A DNA stretch of 64,000 nucleotides, taken from Loxodes magnus. Taxonomy: Eukaryota; Ciliophora; Karyorelictea; Loxodida; Loxodidae. How positions within the stretch are numbered: position 1 is the first letter of the stretch; every line of letters begins with the position of its first letter. The stretch covers positions 1 through 64,000 of the forward strand of contig CAMPDV010001286.1 of NCBI GenBank assembly GCA_946699065.1, in the 5' to 3' direction. The notes beneath the pieces were generated by a model. The model was not told the origin of the DNA. It did no database searches and saw nothing but the letters and a program-made list of their open reading frames with translations. Both the position numbers and the translations under genes were made by a program. Shown here piece after piece: positions 11,087 through 56,679 of the stretch.

Positions 11087-11970
11087 TCAACTCGAGATTC
11101 TCCACTTTCGCACAGAATAATCATATCCTCCCGATACCAACCATCTATTGTCACTACTCAATACTATAGAACTTATATATGATGTATGCCCTTCTAAAGT
11201 CTATATGCACACACCCTTATCAAAGTTCCATATCTTTATAGTTTTATCAAAAGATTCAGAAAATATAACACTTGAGTCAGGACTTAACTGAATACTTGAT
11301 ACAACATGTTTATGACCTTGAAGAGTTCGATACACTAACCAGTAAGGAAGTCCCATATCTTAATTGAACTGTCAATCGAACCTGATATTATGTACCTATT
11401 ATCCTAAGACACTATTACCGATCAAACTGAACTTGAATGACCAGAAAGAGTTCGCTCAAGCTGACCAGTCTGGAAATCCGTGATCTTTATCGTTTTATCA
11501 TCAGATGCTGATATAATTCATTTCTAGTCAGGGGAGATAACTACCGAAGAAACTCAAGAAGTATGACCCGTTAAAAGTTCTTTGGAGGGTACCAGTCTAC
11601 AAGCTTCAGATCTTTATCGTGTTATCACCAGATGCTGATACAATATAACTAGAGTCTGGGAAATTACTACCGATCTAACTGCACGTGTATGTCCCAATTA
11701 AAGTTCTTAGGAGGGAACCAGTCTACGAATTTCAGATCTTGATTGTTGTATCCCCAGATGCTGAACAATATAGCTCGAGTTTGGAGAGAATACTATCGAT
11801 AAAATTCAAGAAGTATGTCCAGTTAAAGTTCTTTAGAGGGTACCTTTATGGAAATTCCAGATCTATATCGAATTTTTAGGAATATCTGAACCAGATAAAA
11901 TTCAGATCATGTCACTTGTTATGGATACCGATAAAACACGTGAAGTGTCATAAATAACCTAGTCTAAAAA
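11087..11970 (-). pseudogene. WD40 repeat protein, C-terminal fragment
   Basis: About seven WD40 blades can be read on the minus strand at a period near 42 residues. The last is best preserved: GHTSYISSIVLSSDNRW-LVSGGYDYSVRKW, ending at a TGA (11087-11089) right after RISS. Others include SSVWSV, DKTIKIW, IISGSIDSSIKIWDF and SASGDNTIKIW. Several blades lie in different frames, so the array is damaged. WD40 arrays fold into a beta-propeller that binds proteins. No RING or start is attached; the neighbouring upstream gene on the same strand is a zinc-knuckle copy, not an obvious N-terminus. Closest relative in the window is the gene at 54.5-56.7 kb. Confidence 0.8.
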
Positions 11971-20132: not shown

Positions 20133-23100
20133 TCAAACAATACCATCTTGATTTTTAGGAGTTGTAACATACTTAGACTGGTTTTTTAAAGTATGAATTA
20201 GATTTTCACCCAAATTTTAAATTGTTTTTGAAAGCTTCCCTTAGAAAGGTTGGTGATCTATTTCATTTATCTTTAGATCTTTTTTCTAAGTGTCTAGATC
20301 TTTTTCGCTTTGTAGATATTTGCTAGTTTTGATTAATGGATCATGCTTATGCTTTATTAGATCAATTCTCTATTTGAAAGCATTTATTTTTGGCCTTTTA
20401 TTTGGGTCAAAACTAAAGCATTCAAGCAGCAATTAATTCAAAGCAGTGTCTTATGATTTTTCTTAAGAGATGGATGGAACTAAACCTTCCAAGCAAATTT
20501 TTTTCATGATTTCTAGTTCATAAACTAGATCTGGAAAAGGTAGTGACTCGTTAAATATTTCGACTGCAACGCAAGCAAGAGACCAAATATCACTTGCTTG
20601 ATAAGCTTTTCCATCATACAATTCAGGAGCCTTTCATTATGAACTTCCCTTTCCTTCTTGAGTTTATACAGACTATCCAAAGCTAACAAGACCAAGATCT
20701 GCAATCTTAGGAGAGTCATTATCATCAAGCAAGATATTAAGAGATTTAATGTCTCTATGAATTAAGTCTTTCGAATGGATTACCTAGACTCCTTCTGCTA
20801 TTTAACTTAACAAGCATAACTTTTTGAAAAATCTAACTGATTAATCTTAGTAATCCTAGAATAACTTTTTTTAAGCAATCAAGTTGTACAGACTTCCTTT
20901 AGACTGATATTCAGTTATTAGACATAGGATAAAATCATTTTCATCTTAGTCATTAATTGATACACCAATTAATCTTAAAACTCTATCACTATTGACACTC
21001 AAGAGGGATTAGCATTCGTGATAAAAATTGTTAATTATTACCTGTCTATCAGTTGAGCTGGTTAGTATCTTTAAAGCATATTTGATGTCATCAATTTCAA
21101 TCAAGTAGACTACTCCATATGCTCCTCTACCAAGCAGTTGTAGAGATTCCAAGAATTGTTTATTTGCAATTAATTAATTATATTACCAGATACGAATTAA
21201 CGATCTTTTGTCTTCGCCAGCTCCATTTTTATGCAAAATAGCTCAGATATCCATCAAAGTTTTATTATCTGAAGAAGAAGGCTAAATTTGAATCTACATA
21301 CTGCATTCATACTTTATTTAAGGATTGAGCTTTATAGCCTTTAAAAAGCACTCCTTTGCTTCTTGGTCTCGTTTCATAGATAATAAAGCTGAGCCTTTAT
21401 TTTTATAGGCTTCAAATTTAGAAGGATCTAGTTTAATTGCGATGTCCAAGTAGCCAACTGCCTATTAATATTACCCAAAGTTTGAAATTCATGTTCCTTA
21501 AGTGTTAAATACTTCATAATAATCATGCTCTAGCTTAAGAGCATCATCTCAGCACTTATTCGCTTCCTCAATTCTTCCTAGCTCGCTAAGAGAAAGGTAC
21601 TTATTTATTAAGGGCAAGGAAAAGTTAGGATCTCTAATAGCTTAATCATAGAAATCAATTGATTCTTCAATTCTACCAGATAAATAAAGAGCAACACCTT
21701 TAGCATTATAAGCTTCAAAGTAATCTGGATTAAGTTAAATAGCAATTTAAAGGGACTCAATAACTTCCTTATATTTGCATTGCTTAAAGTAAACAGTTGC
21801 TTTCTAATTGTATATTTCATAATTACTCGGATCAAGTTTAGATGCAATGTCAAAATATTCGATGGATTTTTCGATTTGGTTTTGATTAAAAAAAATTTTT
21901 GCCTTATTTAAATATAGATCTGCATTATTCGGATCAAATTCAATTAGTTTATCAAAGCATTTGTGAGAGTCTTCGTATTTCTCTAAATTTAGAAAGGCAA
22001 TTCCATTGATTATTAGTGCTTATATTTAATTAGGATCAGTTAAGTCAATCGAATTTAATAACTCTTCAAAGTTTTCCTTATTTTCTGATTCAGAAAAGCC
22101 TCTTTCCTCTTTATTTTTAGCTTAAAACATTTTTTATTAATAATCAAGAGCCATATTTTAGCACTCTATTGCTTCCTCGTATTTGTTCATCTTTAAAAGA
22201 GCTAGTCCTTTTTAAATTTATGAGTCAACGTAATTAGAATCAACTTTCTTAACCATGTTAAAACATTATATAGCTTCTTCTTACTTTCCTAATTCCTAAA
22301 GTGCAACTCCTTTCTAAAATTAAGAATCTTCATCATTGGGATTAATCTTAATACCATTTTTATAGCTTTCAATCGCTTCTTCTTTCTTTCCTAAACCGAG
22401 CAGGCATTATCCTTTTATATAGTGAGCCTGTTCAAGATTAGGATTTAGTTAAATTGCCTTATCAAGTAATTAAACTGCTTCCTCTCTATTTCCTAAGCCC
22501 ATAAGTACTATTCCTTTCAATAGATAAGCTTATAAATGATTAGAATCAAGTTCAATTACACTGTTGAAGCTTTAAAGCGCTTCTTCAAATTTATGTAACC
22601 CACAAAGAGCCTTTCCTTTGATTATATGAGCTTGCTTACTTTTAGGATCTAAACTAATGGCCTAGTTTGAACATTCTATAGCTTCTTCATTCTTATTTAA
22701 ATCCAACAGAATACTACCTTTTAGAGAATAAGCTTCATCAAAACTTGGATTAATCTCTACAACTTTGTTAAAGCATTCAATTGTCTCTTCATTCTTACCT
22801 AGAACGGTTAAAACTATTCCTTTAACGAAATAAGCTTGTGTGAAGTTAGGCTCTAGCTCAATTGCCTTATTATAATATCCTAGAGACTCTTCTTATTTAT
22901 CTTAAAGATAAAGTATTAATCCTATTTTTAATCTTGCCTAGACATGCTCAGAATCCTATTCTATAGCAAGGTTATATTATTAAATAACTTCTTAATGTCT
23001 GTCCAAGCTATAAAAAGCCTCTCCTTTTTCATAGTAAGCTTCAGCATAGTTTCCGTCAAGATCAATTACTTTATTAAATACTTGAATAGCTTCTTCATGC

Positions 23101-25169
23101 TTGCCTAGCTCATTATTGGCAACTCCTATATGTAAAAGAATTTTTAGGTTCAAGCTCGATGATTTAGCTTCAGCACAAAAGAGCATCTTCTAACTTATTT
23201 AAACCACATAGAGCTTTCGCTTTGATAGAATACGTTTATGTATTGGTAGGTTCTAACTCAATAGCTTTGCTTAAACATTCAATTGCTTATTCTCTTTATT
23301 CCAACTCTAAATGAAGAAGTCCCTTATAAAAAAAAGCCTCAGCATTCTTACCATCAAGTTTAGCAGCCTCATTGTAGCATTCAATAGCTTATTCATTTTT
23401 TTCTTAAGCCATTAAAGTAATTCCTTTGAGAAAATGAACTTTCGCTTGGCTAGAGTCAAGCTTTATAACAGAATTATAGCATTCAACTGCCTATTCAAAA
23501 TCTCTTAGCTTTAAAAAGGTATTTCCCTTCAGAAAATAACCCTCTATATTATCTTATTCTAACTTAATTGCCAGATCTAAATTCTCAATAGCCTATTCAT
23601 ATCTTTCTAAATTAAACAGAGCGGCTCCTTTTTTAAAATAAACTAAAACTTCATTAGGTTATAGTTTGATAAACTAGTCGTAGGATTCAATTGCTTCTTG
23701 GTATTTTTCTAAATCTGAAAGTGCGAGTCCCTTTATAATATATGCTTTTTAGCAATTAGGGTCAAATTAAAATACCATATTCAGTGTTTAAATAGCTTCT
23801 TCCTTCTTGTCTAGGCTAATTAGAGCAATTCCTTTCTAAATATATGCTTCATCATCATTAGGCCAAAGTCTGATTACATTGTCATAACTTTCAATAGCTT
23901 CCTCAAATTTATTCAAATCACTGAGTATTTTCCCTTTGGTGGAATAAGCCTTCAGATTATTAGCGTCGATTTAGATAACCATATTTAGGGATTAAATAGC
24001 TTCTTGTTGCTTATCCAATTATATCAGTGTTACTGCTTTGATGAAATGAGCTTAAGCATGATAAGGATCCTTATTGATAGTAATATCCATAAATTAGACA
24101 ACTTCTTCATACTTTTCTTATTAAATAAAAGCTTTTCCTTTCAAGTAATAAGCCTCAATTTTGTTTTCATCTAGTTTAATTACTATATCTAAATTTCTAA
24201 TAGCTTCTTCAGTCTTTTCTTAATCTAAAAGAGTATAGCTCAGTAGAATGTACGCATCAATTTAATTAGGATCAATCTTAATCACCACATTCCAACATTA
24301 TATTGCCTCTTCTTCTTTTTCGGATACTGCTAAAGCTATTCCTTTGTCTATGTGAGCTTTTATATGATTAGATTCAATCTAAATTGTCTTATCATACCAT
24401 TCAATAGCCTCTTAAACCTTGCTTGAACTATATAAAGCTTTTGCTTTTGATAGTGAGCTTCGATATTCTTATGATATTTCTATAAGGCAATGTTGTAATA
24501 ATCAATAGCGCTTTCATGGTCATCTAAGCTATTTAAAACGTTTCCTAGAATAAGAAGAGTTTCTAAATGATAAGGATCTAGATTGAGCGCTGTTTTCCAG
24601 CATTCAATAGCTTCTACAAATTTTAATTGTCTAAAGAGAGAATTTCCTTTATGATGATATCCCTCAACATTTTTATCGTCTATTTAAATAGTCATGTTAT
24701 AGCAGTCTATGGACTCTTATAGTTTATCTAGCTTGAAAAGAGACTTTCCTTTAAGAAGATATGCTAGACTCTCTTTAGGGTAGGATTAAATTATTACATT
24801 ATAGCATTATATTGCTTTCTGGTGACTATCTAGGAGATTGAAAGCAACTCCCTTTGTATATTAGCTTAGTAGAACGAATTCACTTTAAGCAGGGATTTAG
24901 TTTAGGCAATTTATAGCTTTCTAGTACCATTTTAAAACACATAAAACTTACCCTTTATATAAGTACGCGTCAAAGTCTTTAGGCTTCTTCTAAATTGACT
25001 CGTTAAAGCATTAAACTGCTTAAGAGTGCTAACCTTACTTGAAAAACTAGATTCCTTACTTAACTCAGCATTTCCTTGTTTCCTCTTAAATCGTAACTCG
25101 ATCTTTTTATCACTTTTTTCAACATGCCACTGCTAATAGCTTTTTGTTAACTTCTGAAGTGAATTGCAT
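20133..25169 (-). CDS. TPR-repeat protein kinase (long form)
   Basis: Predicted cytoplasmic signalling kinase: about 35 TPR motifs followed by a C-terminal kinase domain. ATG at 25169 (MQFTSEVNKKLLAVAC) is in frame with the first repeat (QGIQFFKQGQHSQAVQCFNE); an upstream ATG at 25482 lies in another frame. TPR units of 34 residues (A-I-E-C-Y-N-K-A-I-x-L-D-P-N) run to about 21.3 kb. The kinase domain has a glycine loop GRGAYGVV, lysine in YALKIL, HRDIKSLNIL, DLG in place of DFG, and WKAPELYD, so all catalytic residues are present. The domain ends with a basic tail and TGA at 20133-20135. Two frame changes interrupt the TPR part, near 24445 (-1) and 23142 (+1), which cancel each other. Either the gene is newly damaged or these are sequence errors. 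Paralogues lie at 28.4, 40.8 and 46.5 kb. Confidence 0.85.
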
Positions 25170-28401: not shown

Positions 28402-29765
28402 ATGCAATAATTTTACAGTAATAAAGGCTTAGTATTGAGGAATAAGGAAAGAATAACGAAGAGATTCAATGCTATGATACTGCTCTTAATTTAGATCCAA
28501 AATTTGTGACTGCTTACAATAATAAGGGTTATTTACTGAATAAGTTAAGCTATTTTTTTGAAGCCATTTAGAGTTTAAACTAAGCTATTTAATTAGATCC
28601 TAATTCCCCCAATCACTATAAACATAAAGGATTTTCTCTTTATGAACTAGGAAACCATTCTGAAGCCATCGAATCTTGTAATAAAGCTATCTAGCTTAAT
28701 CCGAATTATGTAGAAGCCTATTTTAATAAAGGCTTAGGCTTAAAAAAAACTTAAGAAGCACTTTAGTGCTTTACTCTGGCACATTAGCTTAACCCTAAAT
28801 TAGAAATTCCTTAAGTAATCTAGGTAAATCAATCTTTCACAATGCAGGATCAAATTAAATTAGAAGAGATTTGACAACTTTTATAATAAAATGGGACTGG
28901 CTAAGATATCAGAGCTTAGATAAGAATATGGAATTATAAAGAGGTGATTCCAAATAATTAATTAGCTTACAAATTTTAGGTGAAGGTGGATAAGGAACTG
29001 TTTATTTAATAAGCATTAAAGGGTCTGATTATGCACTAAAAGAAATGAACTAAAAGGAGATTATTAAAAGTTAATAGAGGCATTCTATCTTGAATGCTTG
29101 TCTCTTTTATTTGTAAATAACTTAATGGTTCTTAGACTTGTAGGAGTTGCAATTGACACTTCAGATTAAGGAAATTATTGTTTCTATCTTTTAACTGATT
29201 ACATGCCAAAGTGAAGCTTATACTAAGTAATTTAACCTTAATAATTATTAGTTGATTTCTAAGTTGGATCTCCTATAAGATCTTTTAAGAAATTTAATTT
29301 GTTAAGTTAGATAGCTGAAGGTTTATAGTCAATACATTCTCGGAACTTAACTCGTAGAGACATGAAATCTCCAAATATTATTTTAGATGCTTCAGATTCC
29401 CCCAAAATAGCTGACCTTGGATTATTACATGACTCAAGTATAAAAACTACAAAAGAATCAAAAGGCTCACCTCATTGAATGGCTCCAGAACTCTTCGATA
29501 ATAAAGTAAGTTAAAAGAGTGATATCTGATTTTTAGCTTGCATAGCAGTAGAAATATTTAATGAAAAATTACCTTTTCCAGATCTTACTACATAATACTA
29601 AATTATGATGGCAGTTTGCATAAACAGAAGAATTCCTTAATTTTCAGAAGAAATAAATTAAGAACCAGAGTTAGTTTAACTATTATAATAATGCTTTAGT
29701 TATGATTAAAGCAATAGAGCTGATATTTATAGCTTCAAAAATAGATAGATTCATTAATATAAAAG
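28402..29765 (+). pseudogene. shortened TPR-kinase copy
   Basis: Four to five TPRs, then a kinase domain, on the plus strand. TPRs include YDTALNLDPKFVTAYNNKG and YELGNHSEAIESCNKAIQL. The kinase part has a glycine loop GEGGQGTVYL, lysine in YALKEM, RRDMKSPNIIL (His of HRD replaced by Arg), ADLGLL, and GSPHW-MAPELF in which the Trp is TGA. Several frame changes separate these blocks: after the first 25 codons, before the glycine loop, and between the N-lobe and catalytic loop. It is closest to the gene at 40.8-42.5 kb (shared KAIQLN, VGVAIDTS, LPFPDL/LPYPDI). Most likely a decayed duplicate. The end is placed after the last kinase helix because no in-frame TGA follows soon. Confidence 0.75.
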
Positions 29766-40814: not shown

Positions 40815-42512
40815 TCATTCTCTTTTCCTCTTCACAGTTTTAATTATAATATCTAACTCCTCATTAAGATATGCTTTTGTTTTATTTTACTTCTTTTAAT
40901 CTTACACTTAAACATTAGTGGCTTCTTGCTTTTACTTCAAATCTACTATTTATGATCAAATTGTTTGATTACTTTAATTAATTTAGTTTGATTATTAACT
41001 TATTATTTCCCACTTTAGCTTTAAGGAATCTATCTTCTTTTTGAACTTATAAATATCAGGCCTATTGTTTGAATCATAGCTAAAGCATTACTATAATAGT
41101 TAAACTAACTCTGCCTCTTAATTTATTTCATTTTAAAACGAAGGAATTCTTTTATATAGATTAACTGCTTTTATAATTTATGCATATTCTTCTATATCTG
41201 GATAAGGTAATTCCTCATTAAATATCTCTACTGCTATACAAACTAAAAATCAGATATCACTCTTATTACTCACTTTTCCATCGAAGAGTTCGGGAGCCAT
41301 TCATTGAGGTGAACCCTTTTTCTCTTTCGTAGTCTTCACACTTAATTCATGTAATAATCCAAGATCAGCTATTTTGGGAGAATTTGAAGCATCTAAAAGA
41401 ATGTTAAGAGATTTAATATCTCTATGAATTAAGTTCATATAATGAATTGCCTATTAGCCTTCAGCTATCTAACTCAACAAATTAAGCTTCATACAAAATC
41501 TAATAGGAGATTCTTTTTCGAATTCCAAGAATAAAGTTCTAGACTTAATAACTTAATACAAACTTCCCTTAGGCATATAGTCGGTTAAAAGACAAAAACA
41601 GTAATTTTCTTATTCCGAAGTGTCAATTGCAACTCCAACAAGCCTAAAATTTTTGAGTTATTAACTCATAAAAGTCTTTGCATTCATGAAAGAATTCATC
41701 TATTAGCTTTTACAGATTAGTGCTTTATTTCAATTATTTAAGTGCAAAATCAGATCCTTCTATATTGATTAGATAGACACTTCCATATCTACCCTCGCCT
41801 AATTTTTATAAGTTATTAAGGAATTGAGTATTAGGGATTAAGTCCTTATAATTTCATATCCTGATTTGAGTTTTGATCTCTTAGCTAGCTCCATTCTAGT
41901 ATAAAAGTTTCCAGATATCTTCTAACTTAATTTTTGTCTATATTTGAGAAGCTTCTTTTTTAATATATTATTAAGGATCAATCTAATAGGCTTTATTAAA
42001 GCATTCAGTTGCTTCTTAATTTTGATTTAAACTTTGAAGTATTTGCCTTTGATAAAAAAAGCTTCGGTATAATTTGAATTAAGCTAGATTGCTTTATTAC
42101 AAGATTCGATGGCTTAAGAATGGTTTCCAAGTTTATAAAGAGAAAAACCTAAATGTTTGTAGGAATTAGGTAAATTAGAATCTACTTAAATAGCTTAATT
42201 TAAACTCTAAATAGCTTCATTATATCTTTCTAGACTATTAAGTGCAAGACCTTTATTACTATGAGCAGTTGCATATTTAGGATTTATTTTAAGAGCGGAA
42301 TCATAACATTCAACAGCTTCAATGTATTTTCCTAGCTATTCCAACGTAGCACCTTTGCTATAATAAGCATTAGAAGAATTTGGATTAAGTTAAAGAACAG
42401 AATCATAATATTAAATAGCTTCATTAAATTTACCTTATCTACAAAGCTTAAGGCCTTATTTATTATAATCAGTTACAGATAAAGGAGCTGATCTTTGGAG
42501 GCCACATCCCAT
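40815..42512 (-). CDS. TPR-repeat protein kinase, putatively lipid-anchored
   Basis: ATG at 42512 starts MGCGLQRSAPLSV, with Gly2 and Cys3 in the arrangement used for N-myristoylation and palmitoylation, so membrane attachment is likely (inference). Four to five TPRs follow (QGKFNEAIQYYDSVLQLNPN and similar), then a linker and a kinase domain. The glycine loop is GEGRYGSVYL, the lysine is in FALKQL, then LIHRDIKSLNIL, ADLGLL, and GSPQW-MAPELF with Trp encoded by TGA at 41301-41303. Kinase frame and start codon are in phase, but two frame changes that cancel lie near 42042 (-1) and 41660 (+1). Total length to the TGA at 40815 is 566 codons; another TGA at 40956-40958 could be the true stop or Trp. 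Closest to the shortened copy at 28.4 kb. Confidence 0.8.
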
Positions 42513-42929: not shown

Positions 42930-44700
42930 ATGCATTATCATATATTTTAAGAAAGCAATTTAGTAGGGCTATTGGTCTTCAATTACTTCAGACACTTTTA
43001 CTTCTTTTTTAGAAGATAGGTAAAATATTAATTCTTTTCAATTAATTTGGTATAGTGAGTATTCTTAGCATGTTTTTACTAAAATTGTTACTATATTATG
43101 TAATTCCTATTCTCCATATTTAATTGATTCTGCTATTAAACCATCACTATCTGAGGCTTTGTTATTTGCTAATTGATTTATTATTTTTTTAATTTCAGAT
43201 TCTTAAAAAAGAGGCGTTTCTTATAAGAGACGGAGATCAAAATTTATAATAAAAGGTTTATTTTTATATATTTTATTAATGTTTCTATTTGAATTTTCAA
43301 TCTCTTCTTTATTCAAATTTGAATGATTGTCAAAAACTTAATTTTCTCAATTTTAAATAAATTGCTATTGTTACTCATAATTCAAATTCATCTAATTACG
43401 TATTTTCGGATTAATTAAAGTTTTTACTTATTTGAACATTATTTATGCGTTCTTATTAAAATCTCGATGCTTTTCTTTAGCTTATGTATTTTTTTAATTT
43501 CCAAAATTCGTGAAGATATTTTTATAAGATTATTTATCCTTCATAAGTTGGCAACTTCTTAATTTTGGCACCCATAAAAGCTTAAAGAATTTTATTATTA
43601 AATATTATCTTATTTAGCTCAAGAAAAGAGTTATGGAAGCTTATAATAATTGTTTTTGTACACTTGCTAACTAAGTACAATCTGAGCATTAATAGTAATT
43701 AAATCACAGATAAATTAGTACTACTTTTAGACAACTTTTTAATCTATTAGTTAAAATAGGGAGAATTATCCCCAATAAAGATTTTGATATTATCTTCTTA
43801 CATTAGAATCCTATATTATTGAAATCTTAAAGAGTAAACGATATTCTTGATATTGATGTATTCTAGTTAAATCATATTTTAGAGTAATAAATAATGGGAA
43901 ATGCTCAGTATGCAAACCCGAATTTTGAATAGCACAAAATTAGAGAAGTCATCAATATTCGAACGCTTAGTTGCTAGGAAATAAGCATTACATTAATTTT
44001 AATTGTTTACTCTATGAGCGAATGTGTTGTATTATTAGTCATTCAATACTATTAGGTTATTTGCTTTTAAGAAATCTAATGGTCTTTAAGTATTATATTT
44101 AATTTGTGATTAATTACTCCCAAAATAAGGAAATAAAGCATTTAAATTATCACAAAGAATAGTAGGCCTCTAATTGTCATTATTACTTATTATATTAGAA
44201 AGATATTCATAAGCAAGTTCTTTTTAAATGTTTGACTTTTCATTTGTAGGTAAATAACATGAAGCAACTGTTAAATACCCAATTCTTATACTAATAAAAT
44301 GTCCAGGAAGGTTTGAGAAATCTAATTAATTTTAAAAAGAATCAATTTACTTCTTTACTAATAGACATACTCCTCCTACTCCAGTATTAGCATTTTAAAT
44401 ATTTACGATACTATTCTATTATTATAGGGCTATATTAATCTTATATTCATGTTTCATTTATAGAGAAAATCTAAAAATCATTATCAATTATAAAAGACTA
44501 TAAAGATAATTATTTACTGCCAATCGATTTATATCAATGTGTTCAATTTTTTATTATTTTTGTGCTTACGATCCTGCATGTAATCCTCTTTTATAAATAC
44601 ATATTTGATTTATTCCTTTTTATCAACCTAAATATGTACTAATTCTTTTCTGGTTCCAGGGTAATAATTTCTTCAACAAATTCATTTTAAGTTGACTTCT
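42930..44700 (-). mobile_element. LINE fragment: endonuclease and start of reverse transcriptase
   Basis: Mostly one frame on the minus strand. The apurinic-like endonuclease is recognised by NTGVGGVCLLVKKQ, SIRIGYLTVASCYLPT, PTILCDNLNALFPYFGS (the GDFNAHH-type motif, with the Asp retained and Phe replaced), RPLDFLKANNLIVLN and SISHYLLL (position of SDH). After a linker come KKINKLANNKASDSDG with GLIAESIKYG and, in a shifted frame, SNWRPIALLNCFLKIYD, the classic finger motifs of LINE reverse transcriptase. The sequence stops there, just before the palm, and no 3' end or poly(A) is seen. TGA encodes Trp in SNWRP. The element lies between a tRNA gene and the TPR-kinase at 42.5 kb. Confidence 0.8.
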
Positions 44701-44890
44701 GTAAGTTGTAAAGACTCTAAATCTCTTTTTGGAAGTTTTTATGTACCTAACAGTTCTAAACTTTTGAATTTGCAGCTTCTTTATAATTAATTAAAAGAAT
44801 CACTATTTATAACTAGTGAAATATATAGCATCTATTTTCTTTTAATTATATAAATAATCTAATTTCTATTTATTCCTTTATAATCAAAAG

Positions 44891-44961
44891 TGCGCTATCC
44901 GGACTCGAACCCGGGTCAACTGCTTGGAAGGCAGTTATCCTAACCACTAGACTAATAGCGC
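44891..44961 (-). tRNA. tRNA-Gly (anticodon TCC)
   Basis: The minus strand folds as a 71-nt tRNA without encoded CCA. The acceptor stem is GCGCTAT paired with ATAGCGC, followed by discriminator A. The anticodon arm is ACTGC / loop CTTCCAA / GCAGT, giving anticodon TCC. The D-arm region has TAGTGGTTAGG, and the T arm CCCGG / GTTCGAG / TCCGG has one C-C mismatch. A run of four T just downstream (44886-44889 on the complement) is a pol III terminator. It reads GGA glycine codons, frequent in this AT-rich genome. The flanking genes are a LINE fragment downstream and a zinc-knuckle protein upstream on the same strand. Confidence 0.93.
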
Positions 44962-45919: not shown

Positions 45920-46470
45920 ATGTTACTATAAAATAGTAATTAATAAATCATTTAATCAAAATTAATAATTTTGCTTATAAAGTCTTATTTAAGACTCAAA
46001 CTAATCCTTTAATCATATAATCAAAAACTAATTCTTAGTTTCTAGCAAATTAGGTAATTTTAACAACTTAAAGTGTTTTTGATACTATAGCAATTTTTAT
46101 TTAAATCTAATTTATTCAAAATACCGTAATTTTAGTAAATTAGTTACAAAAAATACTTCTAAATAAGTTTCATAAAGTAGCTAGAAATTTAAATCATTCT
46201 TTAATATTGAAATAGAAGGCGACATGCATATCTGTAGATTAAGTGAGCTTGATAATCATTTTAATCTAATCATAATATTAGGCTTTAATATTAATTTTGA
46301 TTGATTGATGGCTATATCAATAATATCTTGCTAATAAATAAAGTTAATTATAAAATTAATAGTAATATAAGAATAATAATAAAATTTTTAGATAAATAGT
46401 TTTAGTCTTTAACTCTTCTTCTTCATTTCTCATAAAATTCTGATATATTAACTAATATCTGCATATAGAT
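45920..46470. other. AT-rich intergenic DNA
   Basis: Spacer between the zinc-knuckle gene and the end of the TPR-pseudokinase. Nothing recognised. Confidence 0.6.
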
Positions 46471-46471
46471 T

Positions 46472-48643
46472 TCACTTCTATTTTATTTGCTCTAACTAAC
46501 TTATAAAAATATCTATGTCTGGTCTTATGTTCTCGTCGAAAGCTAAACACCTGTAAAATAGATCAACTAGTAAAGGTTCTTGCTATATTTCGTTTTAAAA
46601 ACTAGGAATCATTTTATCGATATAAACTATTTACTTTAACTAAGAATCTTAAACTGGATAAAGAAATCCTTCGTTAAATATCTCAATGCCTATACAACCT
46701 AAAGATCAGATATCACTTTTTTTACTCACTCTCTTTTCAAATTATTCAGGAGCCATTCATTGATGTTCACCTTTCTATTCTATTGCTCTTAATCAGTTAT
46801 CTTAATTAAATAATCCAAAAGTTAGTATTTTAGGACAATCTTAATCATCTAACAGAATATTAAGAGATTTTATTTCTTTATGAATTAAGTTTCTATTGTG
46901 AATAGCCTATAAGCCTTCTGCTATTTAACTAAGTAAGTTAAGTTTCTTATAGAATTTTATTGTAGAGTAACAGTTTTTGAATAACTACTTAGTCAAAATA
47001 ATTTAGAATACACTTCCTTTATTCTAAAAATCAGTTAAAAGAGCTATTTCTTAAGTATCGACTGCAAATCCTATAAGTTTTTAAACACTTAAGCTATTTA
47101 TTAAAATTAGTTCTTTACATTCAAATCAGAACTAATCTATTATTTTATCGTTCTATTAGTTAAATACTTTAAATCCATACATGAATCCTTAGATATTAAC
47201 CAGATAAGTCGTTCCGAAATCATCACAAGCCAATTTCTACAATTCCCCAAGAAATTAATTGTTAGGAACTAAATCTCTATATTTCCATATTCTTACTTCA
47301 CAACTACTATCAAATTACTATAAGAACTTTCTTATTTCTTCTTCTGTTATTCTATTCATTACTTAGTTTACTTAGATTATCTCATTTGTTACTGTTAGTT
47401 AGGGAATTTCTAAATGTGGATTAAGTTATCTTGCTTTACTGAAGCATTCAAATACTTCTTGATTTAGGTTTAAAGCTTGAAGGCAAAGATCTTTATTATA
47501 ATAAGCTTATTCATAATTAGGATTAAGCGAAATAGCTGCGTCGAAACATAAGATGGCATCGGGATAATTTCCTATTGTATAAAGAGATAATCCTTTATTG
47601 CAATGAGTATCTGCATCATTAGGATTTAGTTTCAGAGCTAAATCGTAGCTCTAGATTGCTTCGACGAGTTTACCTAAATCGCTCAATGCTCTTCCTTTAT
47701 TGCAATGAGTATCTGCATCATTAGGATTTAGTTTCAGAGCTAAATCGTAGCTCTAGATTGCTTCGACGAGTTTACCTAAATCGCTCAATGCTCTTCCTTT
47801 ATTGCAATGAGTATCTGCATCATTAGGATTTAGTTTCAGAGCTAAATCGTAGCTCTAGATTGTTTCGACGAGTTTACCTAAATCGCTCAATGCTCTTCCT
47901 TTATTGCAATGAGTAACTGCATCATTAGGATTTAGTTTCAGAGCTAAATCGTAGCTCTAGATTGCTTCGACGAGTTTGCCTAATTTGGTCAATGCAAATC
48001 CTTTATTGCAATGAGTAACTGCATGATTAGGATTTAGTTTCAGAGCTAAATCGTAGCTCTAGATTGCTTCGACGAGTTTGCCTAATTTGGTCAATGCAAA
48101 TCCTTTACTGCAATGAGTAACTGCATGATTAGGATTTAGTTTCAGAGCTAAATCGTAGCTCTAGATTGCTTCGACGAGTTTGCCTAATTTGGTCAATGCA
48201 AATCCTTTATTGCAATGAGTAACTGCATGATTAGGATTTAGTTTCAGAGCTAAATCGTAGCTCTAGATTGCTTCGACGAGTTTGCCTAATTTGGTCAATG
48301 CAAATCCTTTATTGCAATGAGTAACTGCATGATTAGGATTTAGTTTCAGAGCTAAATCGTAGCTCTAGATTGCTTCGACGAGTTTGCCTAATTTGGTCAA
48401 TGCAATTCCTTTACTGCAATGAGTAATTGCATGATTAGGATTTAGTTTCAGAGCTAAATCGTAGCTCTAGATTGCTTCGACGAGTTTGCCTAATTTGGTC
48501 AATGCAAATCCTTTACTGCAATGAGTAATTGCTTGATTAGGATCTAATATAATAGCAATGTTAAAATATTCAATAGCTTCTGTATAATTTTCTTCTTTGA
48601 AAAATTAATTTCCTTATCTGAAATATTATAAGGCTTCAGACAT
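46472..48643 (-). CDS. TPR-repeat pseudokinase with homogenised TPR array
   Basis: ATG at 48643 (MSEALQYFRQGNQFFKEENY) to TGA at 46472-46474 gives exactly 723 codons plus stop in one frame. It is the only intact member of the TPR-kinase family here. Residues about 1-35 are a divergent TPR, followed by nine near-identical 34-residue TPRs, two ordinary TPRs (YTIGNYPDAILCFDAAI; LQALNLNQEVFECFSKARQL), a linker ending FLGELQKL and a kinase-fold domain. The glycine loop is lost (ACDDFGTTY). HRD is replaced by HKE (46874-46882) and DFG/DLG by TFG (46814-46822), while the lysine in YGFKVF and W-MAPEQF remain. It should therefore be a catalytically dead scaffold or allosteric partner (inference). Internal TGAs encode Trp, for example in EHQW-MAPE. 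Confidence 0.9.
47609..48545 (-). repeat. nine tandem 102-bp TPR units
   Basis: The word ttcagagctaaatcgtagct recurs at exact 102-bp steps from 47631 to 48447. Each unit encodes one 34-residue TPR (core KLVEAIQSYDLALKLNPN). Three units at the C-terminal side carry GRALSDLG, six at the N-terminal side carry GFALTKLG. Identity between units is near complete even at silent positions. This points to recent expansion or gene conversion, unlike the diverged TPRs of the paralogues. Confidence 0.97.
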
Positions 48644-54465: not shown

Positions 54466-56679
54466 TCAACTCTCCATTAAAAATTATTTGATAATTTTCT
54501 CTTTTTAAGATGTATCCTTCCTTTCCATTAATTATATAAAGGTTCTTTGATTCTCATTTTAATATTTATCAAATTTATAAATTTAAATTATTAAATTAAA
54601 TGCTTCTTTTTTTAATTTTTATAGTTAGAAACTTAATTATTCTTTCATCGATTCCATAATTCCTCTTTTTATAATTAAATAGCTTTGTATATATATCCTT
54701 AATTTATTTAAATTTTTGAATTTATCGTTTTTTGTCTTAAAATTCTATTTTTTTCTCATCTACTCTCCTTCTAAATTTCTCTTCCTTCAATAGATATTCT
54801 CTTTTATATCTGTACTAAAATATCTTACCTTTACTTACTTGTTCAATATGCTTTTTTCATACTTTCTTTAAATATTTCACTTTCTCACATTTTTATCCCA
54901 ACTACCTGATATTATTCACTTGTCATCACTACTTAGTGCTACACTCCTTACTTCAGCTGTATGCCCCATTAACGTATATACACATTCTCCTGTTTAGAAA
55001 TCCCATATCTTTATTGTTTTATCTCCACTTCCTGATACTATAAAACTGTTGTTGCTTGTCAATGTAACTCCTCCTATTCAACCTTAATGCCTGTTATTGT
55101 TCTTATACACTATCCAGTCTAAAAATTGCATATCTTAATCATCTTATCAGAACTTCCAGAAACGATTCATCTCTGGTCACTTGATATTACTACAGAATTT
55201 ACAGATTATGTATGTCCCTTCAGTGTACTCTTTAATTAGTTAGCTTGTAAATTTCATATCTTTATTGTATTATCTATACTTGTAGATATAATATAGTTGT
55301 TGTCACTTGAAATTGCTACAGATAAAACTTGACTCGTATGCCCCTACAAGGAACTTTTTAATTAATTAGTTTTGAAATCCCAAATTTTGATCGTGTTATC
55401 ATAACTACCAGAAACGATTCACTTCTGGTCATTTGTTAGAACTACTGAGTAAACAGAACTATTATATCCATATAAAGTACTCTTTAACTAACCAGACACT
55501 AAATCCCATATCTTTATAGTATTGTCATCACTTCCAGATATTATATAATTGCAGTCACTCGAAATAGATGCAGTTAAAACAAAACCTGTATGTCCCTACA
55601 AAGTACTCTTTAATTAGGCACTATTAAAGTCCCATATTTTTATCGTATTATCATCGCTTACTGAAACAATTCATTTCTGGTCTCTAGATATAGTTACAGA
55701 TAATATAGTTTTTGTATGTCCCTACATTATTTGATCTGTGTATAAAAATATACCTTAATCTTGAATTTCATTAAATTAATTAATAGCTTTCTATTAATTA
55801 TTTGCTGCTTTGTTTTCTATATAAATATTTTAAAATAAATACATTAAATTTAAGGCTCTTAAGAGTTTTTCCATTGCCTCTGAAATTTATATTAAACTTA
55901 CTTCTGATTTTTATAAATATTCTTGATAGAATTCTTGATTCATCTACTTTAATCAGTCTCTTTCTCAGATTTATATATTTTAAAATTTCATTAACTAACT
56001 TGATAATAGTTATATCTAACTAATTAAATGCTTAATAAACTCTTTATGCTATTCTATCTATCTACGGTAATTTTATATCTTATATCTTACATTTAAAGTT
56101 ATTGCTTAATTAAAAATAATTTTAGTCGTAGTTAATTAAAACACTATAGGCCTGCTAAGCTTTTAATATTTAATTTTAAACTATTTAAATTAGTTAGGTA
56201 TATTCTAAATTTGAAACATCATGTCATTTACTTTATTTCAATTAGCTTTATAACTCCAGTAAGTTATTTATCTCCTTTTTTGTTGTTACTTAGTGACTTT
56301 ATAGTTCTTCATATATTTTAGAACTATCTGTAAATAAATTAATTTCGAGGTCCTCTAGAAGTTTATTTACTATAGCCAGCTTTATCTTTTTTATCTTCTA
56401 TAACTCTTAACTTACTCTATTCTCTAATGATTTTAACTATATTATATTAGATTATATAAAGCTTTGCTTGGTAGTATCTAACATCAGCTTATCACTCTAT
56501 AGTTAAGTTGGGTGAGTTTTAGTATGAGTTTTGCAGTTATTACCCATACATTAGATTTATTTAGACTTTAAGAACTAGTTATGAATACATTCGTAACACA
56601 TTTAGTGAACACATTCAAGTATCATAGGAACCTTCACCTAGTCATCAAAATCTCCGTTACAAGCTTTACATTTGATGTT
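54466..56679 (-). CDS. RING finger - coiled coil - WD40 protein
   Basis: Likely E3 ubiquitin ligase-like protein. The N-terminal RING starts at 56670: CKAC, 14 residues, CVHQMCYEC, then CMGNNC, giving C-x2-C-x14-C-x-H-x2-C-x2-C-x12-C-x4-C. About 200 residues of coiled coil follow (LENRVSQELQKIKK...). A frame change near 55850 leads into seven WD40 blades (55735-54880) such as GHTSQVLSVAISSDNNY and DQKWIVSGSYDNTIKIWDF, where Trp at 55419-55421 is TGA and many Gln are TAA/TAG. A second frame change lies near 55085 (GHQGW). After the last blade (GSWDKNVRKW) a coiled-coil tail continues to TGA at 54466-54468; if the TGA in KW is a stop, the gene ends at 54877. No in-frame ATG precedes the RING, so the true start, possibly on a small upstream exon, is unknown. 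Confidence 0.8.

Follow-up and report, generated by a model that had tools for sequence, protein, structure and literature searches.

A TPR-pseudokinase gene of Loxodes magnus and its clustered family: a probable non-catalytic adaptor or recognition protein

Gene A and the other kinases of the window

The window analysed here is the stretch of 64,000 nucleotides at positions 1 to 64,000 of one contig of the Loxodes magnus assembly (C1286:1-64000); the assembly as searched comprises 705,730,643 bases in 7,843 contigs. It represents the macronuclear genome, described as repeat-rich and 706 Mbp in size, with short introns (mode 17 bp) and with genetic code 27, in which UGA is either Trp or stop (PMC11441545). 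All translations were made accordingly, with TAA and TAG as Gln and TGA as Trp or stop. This reading is supported by the gene family itself, because the conserved Trp of the motifs QWMAPE and SDIWSLG is written TGA (in 52 of 54 and in all 54 distinct pseudokinase copies, respectively), and in-frame TAA, TAG or TGA codons are present in nearly all kinase matches listed by the genome search. As code 27 rarely closes a reading frame, the continuity of the frame and dN/dS, rather than its openness, have to serve as the measure of a gene's health.

Gene A consists of 11 tetratricopeptide repeat (TPR) units, a linker and a kinase domain, in this order and in a single frame (Table 1), which agrees with the earlier note, in which a full reading frame had been claimed for this copy. 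The TGA at 46474 was read as Trp, since the similarity to related copies extends past it. The array matches the Pfam family TPR_1 (PF00515, E=1.5e-103) and shows the tandem 34-residue units that characterize TPR proteins. Gene A belongs to the protein kinase superfamily, as its residues 573-798 match the Pkinase profile (PF00069, E=7.6e-27, 94.8 bits against a cut-off of 31.7) over most of the domain.

All four kinases of the window (A, B, C and D) were aligned. Alignment and translation bear out the earlier observation that the glycine loop, the HRD Asp and the DFG Asp of gene A are replaced, while the ATP-binding lysine and the APE motif are kept; the alphaC-Glu and the catalytic-loop Asn are retained as well. 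A domain counts as a pseudokinase once the VAIK Lys, the HRD Asp or the DFG Asp, or more than one of them, is missing (PMC4718504), and gene A, having lost both Asp residues and kept the Lys, is classed as one on its sequence. The interval from 46472 to 46900, to which the pseudokinase had originally been assigned, starts shortly ahead of HKE and covers the remainder of the domain; the glycine loop and the Lys are located outside, and the gene lies on the minus strand. A structure prediction with four sequences reached a pLDDT of only 39 and a pTM of 0.30 and was rejected. Among PDB sequences, LCK, CTR1, IRAK4 and IRAK3 rank with the best matches of gene A, as do an EGFR-named construct and TAK1 with those of paralogue C, and both domains appear to be TK/TKL-like.

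Table 1. Coordinates of gene A, its motifs and the paralogous kinases in the window
Feature	Position	Strand	Remark
Gene A, TPR-pseudokinase	46430..48643	-	Met at 48643 to probable stop TGA at 46432-46430
Gene A, N-terminal TPR region (11 units in one frame) and spacer	47360..48643	-	Pfam, unit scan, translation
Tandem repeat, 102-bp unit, 9.4 copies, 97% matches (homogenised TPR units)	47589..48543		tandem-repeat scan
Gene A, kinase domain from VAIK region onward	46481..47182	-	match range of the genome search
Degenerate glycine loop LACDDFG	47213..47233	-	alignment and translation
beta3 (VAIK) Lys, kept	47168..47170	-	alignment and translation
HKE replacing HRD	46874..46882	-	alignment and translation
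TFG replacing DFG	46814..46822	-	alignment and translation
APE motif, kept	46745..46753	-	alignment and translation
Paralogue B, HRD/ADLG	40998..41931	-	linker 41931-41668 in one frame, kinase 41663-40998 in another; TPR-like text farther upstream
Paralogue C	20343..25100	-	GRGAYG, Lys, HRD, ADLG; kinase 21206-20343 and about 15 TPRs in one frame
Paralogue D	29065..29760	+	kinase match; TRRDM for IHRDI, ADLG kept; preceding glycine-loop part out of frame

The three paralogues share ADLG, and paralogue D reads RRD at the position where B and C read HRD. Paralogue C was at one stage regarded as fully intact; this was rejected, as two frame changes (near 23140 and 24470) lie in the TPR array upstream of the kinase and the approximately 15 TPRs that are in frame with it. 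The change near 23140 does not represent an intron, as bases are lost within a TPR unit.

Further features of the window were recorded alongside. A tRNA-Gly (TCC) gene is found at 44890-44961 on the minus strand, 1.5 kb downstream of gene A. Tandem repeats with units of 126/252 bp occupy 55122-55726 and likewise 11482-11844, the latter according to the tandem-repeat scan alone. The minus-strand translation of 54500-57200 matches WD40 (E=1.5e-51), and another repeat-protein gene thus lies near the TPR-kinase genes. Near 43002 on the minus strand, there is a short string that may resemble a LINE reverse transcriptase motif; the three frames of 183 amino acids at this place gave no Pfam match at 0.001.

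The family across the genome

A protein search of the assembly with the gene A kinase domain returned at least 150 scored places from 3,817 candidates, with identities to the query from 85% down to 61% on a scale on which gene A scores 90% to itself, since TAA, TAG and TGA were read as stops in this search. Among the matches listed, the pseudokinase places are often clustered (e.g., at least 11 on C587 and at least 9 on C1084), and many of these contigs were also recovered with a TPR-linker query. Because some contigs are near-copies of each other, the number of distinct loci is smaller than the number of places. In total, 68 loci were fetched, namely the best 30 matches (L009-L038, with L009 being gene A itself), the next 20 (L039-L058) and 18 picked lower among the 150 to cover more distant groups (L059-L076). 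With gene A's second name excluded, seven pairs of loci have identical linker-kinase DNA.

The altered motifs of gene A are common to the whole set. HKE is found in 66 of the 68 loci (HKQ and HKK in the remaining two), the DFG Asp is absent in all 68, the catalytic-loop Asn is present in 67, and the beta3-Lys and the alphaC-Glu are present in all 66 loci that cover these positions. The APE Glu is changed to Gln in 4 of 54 distinct copies, which we count against the interpretation preferred below. The nearly invariant Glu at the HRD position and the retained Lys, alphaC-Glu and Asn would also suit an atypical kinase that transfers phosphate by an unusual route, with Glu standing in for the HRD Asp and other residues holding the cation; CASK and WNK are active despite lost motifs (PMC4718504). 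However, both Asp residues (of HRD and of DFG) and the initial glycines of the loop were lost together, and the DFG-Asp position is variable among the pseudokinase loci (T, I, A, N or P), so that we consider such an activity highly improbable.

Many of these copies are continuous. When approximately 3.3 kb of upstream DNA was included, a single frame could be followed in 15 of 20 long copies from a Met close to the first TPR across 7 to 26 units into the kinase, the five others being L039, L043, L053, L056 and L057. Of three shorter loci scanned, L018 and L034 are single-frame and L010 is not, and a frame change within the linker or the kinase part occurs in 7 of the 68 loci (L017, L064, L065, L072, L074, L075 and L076); since the loci rank by similarity to a query, these break rates are not unbiased. 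An apparent case of identical kinase domains with swapped TPR arrays was rejected as an artefact of listing the best runs; the identity between L012 and L014 is 99.9% over 3.7 kb. Behind the constant kinase domain, the C-terminal tail varies from copy to copy, in part through its frame (21 loci from L010-L070 and the window). Beside L017, a pseudokinase with a frame change in the linker, TPR-unit matches extend over 6.6 kb on the minus strand (G000:C1278:81875-88519, among the matches listed), which offers room for approximately 65 units.

A second search with the paralogue C kinase gave 146 scored places from 4,289 candidates, from which ten HRD/ADLG loci were chosen (L077-L086). All ten read HRD and either ADLG or ADFG, and the beta3-Lys is present in eight of the nine that cover it, with Gln in L079; L086 contains an internal frame change. 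L079 also has a gap before the C-lobe Arg and may be an HRD-side kinase that has lost its activity as well. Three of the ten loci were extended upstream (L082, L081 and L078, as L087, L088 and L089, respectively), and each continues in a single frame from its TPRs into the kinase, with 7, 10 and 21 units detected and with the start of L089 outside the DNA fetched. Paralogue C itself is found in near-identical form on eight contigs (C1286, C1939, C2197, C5826, C627, C3277, C6136 and C1272; the best 8 of 146 matches), several of which also carry pseudokinase places, as would be seen with large duplicated blocks or uncollapsed haplotypes.

From the frame scans of both classes, it follows that open copies exist among the pseudokinases as well as among the HRD/ADLG kinases. 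The earlier note had described gene A as the only intact family member, which is refuted by the many single-frame pseudokinase copies and HRD/ADLG paralogues in the genome. It had further contrasted an open dead copy with broken catalytic paralogues. Inside the window this is accurate, as B, C and D each change frame, but it does not hold genome-wide, where HRD/ADLG paralogues are open and some pseudokinase copies are broken. The contrast is a sampling effect of one window.

A protein tree of 54 pseudokinase and 12 HRD-side sequences unites all pseudokinases in one clade with a split support of 100 and a stem of 0.55. With L085 as root, this clade is nested within the HRD side, beside B and D; this root was chosen, and the nesting depends on it, whereas the split into two groups is independent of rooting. 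Because the pseudokinases form one well-supported clade, a single loss of the catalytic residues appears probable.

Selection on the kinase domain and variation in the TPR array

For the codon model (code 27), ten of 72 named sequences were dropped, namely winB, winD, L009 (identical with gene A) and the seven that change frame. Of the 62 retained, 55 are distinct including winC, which served as root and was then pruned. For the remaining 54 distinct copies and 269 codons, the M0 model gave an omega of 0.203, with a log-likelihood of -7876.4 compared to -8181.2 at an omega of 1 (lower by 305); this and the following omegas are approximate, since the nucleotide tree that supplied the scaled branch lengths is weakly supported at its inner nodes and the copies have probably undergone gene conversion. 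By segment, omega was 0.147 from HRD to APE, 0.227 in the N-lobe, 0.175 in the C-lobe after APE and 0.36 in the linker. Pairwise Nei-Gojobori dN/dS of the kinase part lay between 0.24 and 0.31 in every dS bin (1,431 pairs, which are not independent). On the terminal branch of gene A, omega was 0.181, and a value of 1 was rejected (2dlnL of 11.0, p=0.00091). All terminal branches together gave 0.189, which differs little from the 0.226 of the inner branches (log-likelihood of -7875.41 versus -7876.37 with one omega), and again an omega of 1 was rejected (p=7e-87). The same is true for terminal branches shorter than 0.02 substitutions per base (omega 0.219, p=1e-13).

The dN/dS ratio had been put forward in the earlier note as a check, with a value near 1 speaking against a maintained domain, and the ratios of the domain and of the gene A branch are far lower. 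Purifying selection on a kinase that reads HKE in 66 of 68 loci and lacks the DFG Asp in every one supports the maintenance of a dead kinase fold coupled to a TPR array, as judged from its substitution pattern. This selective part of the earlier proposal stands; the scaffold role that it suggested for the protein is one possibility, and the variation of the TPRs points rather to recognition or an adaptor function.

These data also bear on the idea that the family is a segmentally amplified repeat of little function, whose low dN/dS was inherited from a few functional sources and most of whose copies, including gene A, are decaying. Broken copies do exist, near-identical blocks occur on several contigs, and the window paralogues B, C and D carry frame changes. 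Nevertheless, the terminal branches, which record change after each copy arose, show the low omegas given above, including the short ones and that of gene A, and three-quarters of the long copies (15 of 20) are single-frame, which renders general decay unlikely.

The TPR array behaves differently from the kinase domain, as its variation is concentrated at known ligand-binding positions of the repeat. Positions 2, 5, 9, 12, 13, 33 and 34 are described as the most variable in TPRs and are located on the concave face (PMC1261162). Among 459 units of 50 genes (227 distinct), entropy was highest at positions 9, 13, 34, 12 and 2, followed by 18, 5, 26 and 17, with positions 8, 20 and 32 fixed by construction through the unit filter. 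Departures from the published list are position 33, which is nearly invariant, and positions 18, 26 and 17, which vary much though they are not part of the list as given there. The ratio of entropy at the seven binding positions to that at the others was 2.26 (2.03-2.58) in pseudokinase genes (262 distinct units, subsampled to 56), 1.60 in the HRD/ADLG paralogues (56 distinct units) and 5.29 among 115 units close to those of gene A, with the caveats that the binding positions vary most in TPRs generally, that the ratio tends upward in more similar sets and that the filter used here fixes position 20 and restricts position 8.

A recount of changes on a minimum spanning tree gave a per-site N/S at the seven positions of 1.71-2.18 by events and 1.16-1.49 by unique changes, compared to 0.28-0.44 at the other TPR positions. 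It replaced a pairwise pN/pS of 3.4 at the binding positions, which was rejected as it counted shuffled variants many times. By unique changes, the difference between binding and other positions had Fisher p values of 0.30, 0.097, 0.0077 and 0.0020 at four cut-offs. Strict positive selection at the binding positions is not proved, because the N/S of unique changes is just 1.16-1.49. The arrays also differ in length between close relatives, as L045 and L058 are 98.7% identical over 2.8 kb and yet have 12 and 16 TPR units, respectively.

Part of this evidence would also fit a plain pseudokinase scaffold or allosteric partner that regulates an active TPR-kinase paralogue, with the TPR variation reflecting drift and homogenisation at generally variable positions and no recognition role. 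The kinase omega of 0.20, the presence of HRD/ADLG paralogues of the same architecture in the same genome and the low N/S of unique changes agree with it, and we regard it as a serious though lesser possibility. It accounts less readily for the multiplication and clustering of the copies, for arrays of 7 to 26 units, for the differing unit numbers of the near-identical L045 and L058, and for variation that is more confined to the binding positions than in the HRD/ADLG paralogues.

Interpretation and comparison with known systems

Taken together, gene A probably encodes a non-catalytic adaptor or recognition protein, in which a constant pseudokinase is coupled to a diversifying TPR array, and which belongs to a family that was amplified in clusters in L. 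magnus. A selected non-catalytic role thereby appears better supported than could be known when the earlier note was made from the window. In the proposed scenario, the catalytic Asp residues and the greater part of the glycine loop would have disappeared from an ancestral TPR-kinase that retained its C-lobe, the catalytic-loop Asn and the beta3-Lys/alphaC-Glu pair, and multiplication would have followed. The kinase domain may serve as a constant docking or switch module that works without phosphotransfer, and the TPR array would bind variable partners via its concave face, which we infer from where the variation lies. The protein would then most likely recruit a chosen target or sense a ligand, and the signal could be passed on by binding an active kinase, perhaps an HRD/ADLG TPR-kinase paralogue.

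A more far-reaching version, which we offer as speculative and doubtful, is an NLR-like recognition repertoire without NLRs in a karyorelict ciliate. It would comprise many clustered genes in which unequal exchange and selection diversify the ligand-binding face of the TPR array, each with a constant pseudokinase that relays through catalytic TPR-kinase paralogues, in the service of defence or of self/non-self recognition. A dead kinase that is multiplied in clusters, kept by purifying selection and linked to a binding array of variable sequence would make the pseudokinase the constant part of a repertoire and, if true, would provide a testable candidate recognition system in a single-celled eukaryote.

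The words 'kinase' and 'tpr' do not occur in the main text of the L. magnus genome paper (PMC11441545), and no paper on a ciliate TPR-pseudokinase family was found among open-licence PMC papers. Pseudokinases as such are widespread, making up approximately 10% of human kinases and a predicted 20% or so of Arabidopsis receptor-like kinases, and IRAK3, MLKL and similar pseudokinases likewise have an altered HRD, DFG or glycine loop (PMC4718504). Their relation to gene A is at the level of the superfamily only. To our knowledge, TPR arrays are absent from these proteins.

The nearest known architecture is that of the plant BSKs (BSK3 and BSK8), which combine TPRs with a kinase whose DFG is altered (CFG in BSK8); BSK8 binds nucleotide, and activity was not detected (PMC4718504). 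A scaffold function is possible for BSK3, whose TPRs contribute to dimerization (PMC6336344). However, BSK3 has the kinase first, three C-terminal TPRs and N-myristoylation, and its family is described as having twelve members. In gene A, the N-terminal kinase and C-terminal TPRs of a BSK are found in the reverse order, and its family has 7 to 26 units in single-frame long copies, is far larger and contains homogenised units.

With regard to the repertoire, the fungal NLR-type proteins (Podospora HET proteins and TPR NLRs, with highly conserved WD, ANK or TPR repeats) are alike in their near-identical repeats, differences in repeat number and variation on the concave face (PMC4986451). They differ in that the constant module in L. 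magnus is a pseudokinase, with no NACHT, NB-ARC or other STAND NTPase domain in gene A among the 24 Pfam families listed (E up to 0.1), and in that the variation is known here from the copies in one assembly. The Tetrahymena family with 90-bp exons is built of LRRs instead of TPRs, its units are separate exons, and no pseudokinase family is described in the parts of PMC6564038 considered here. Nevertheless, it is the closest ciliate parallel found, as it combines species-specific amplification, variable repeat number and ectopic recombination with purifying selection (PMC6564038).
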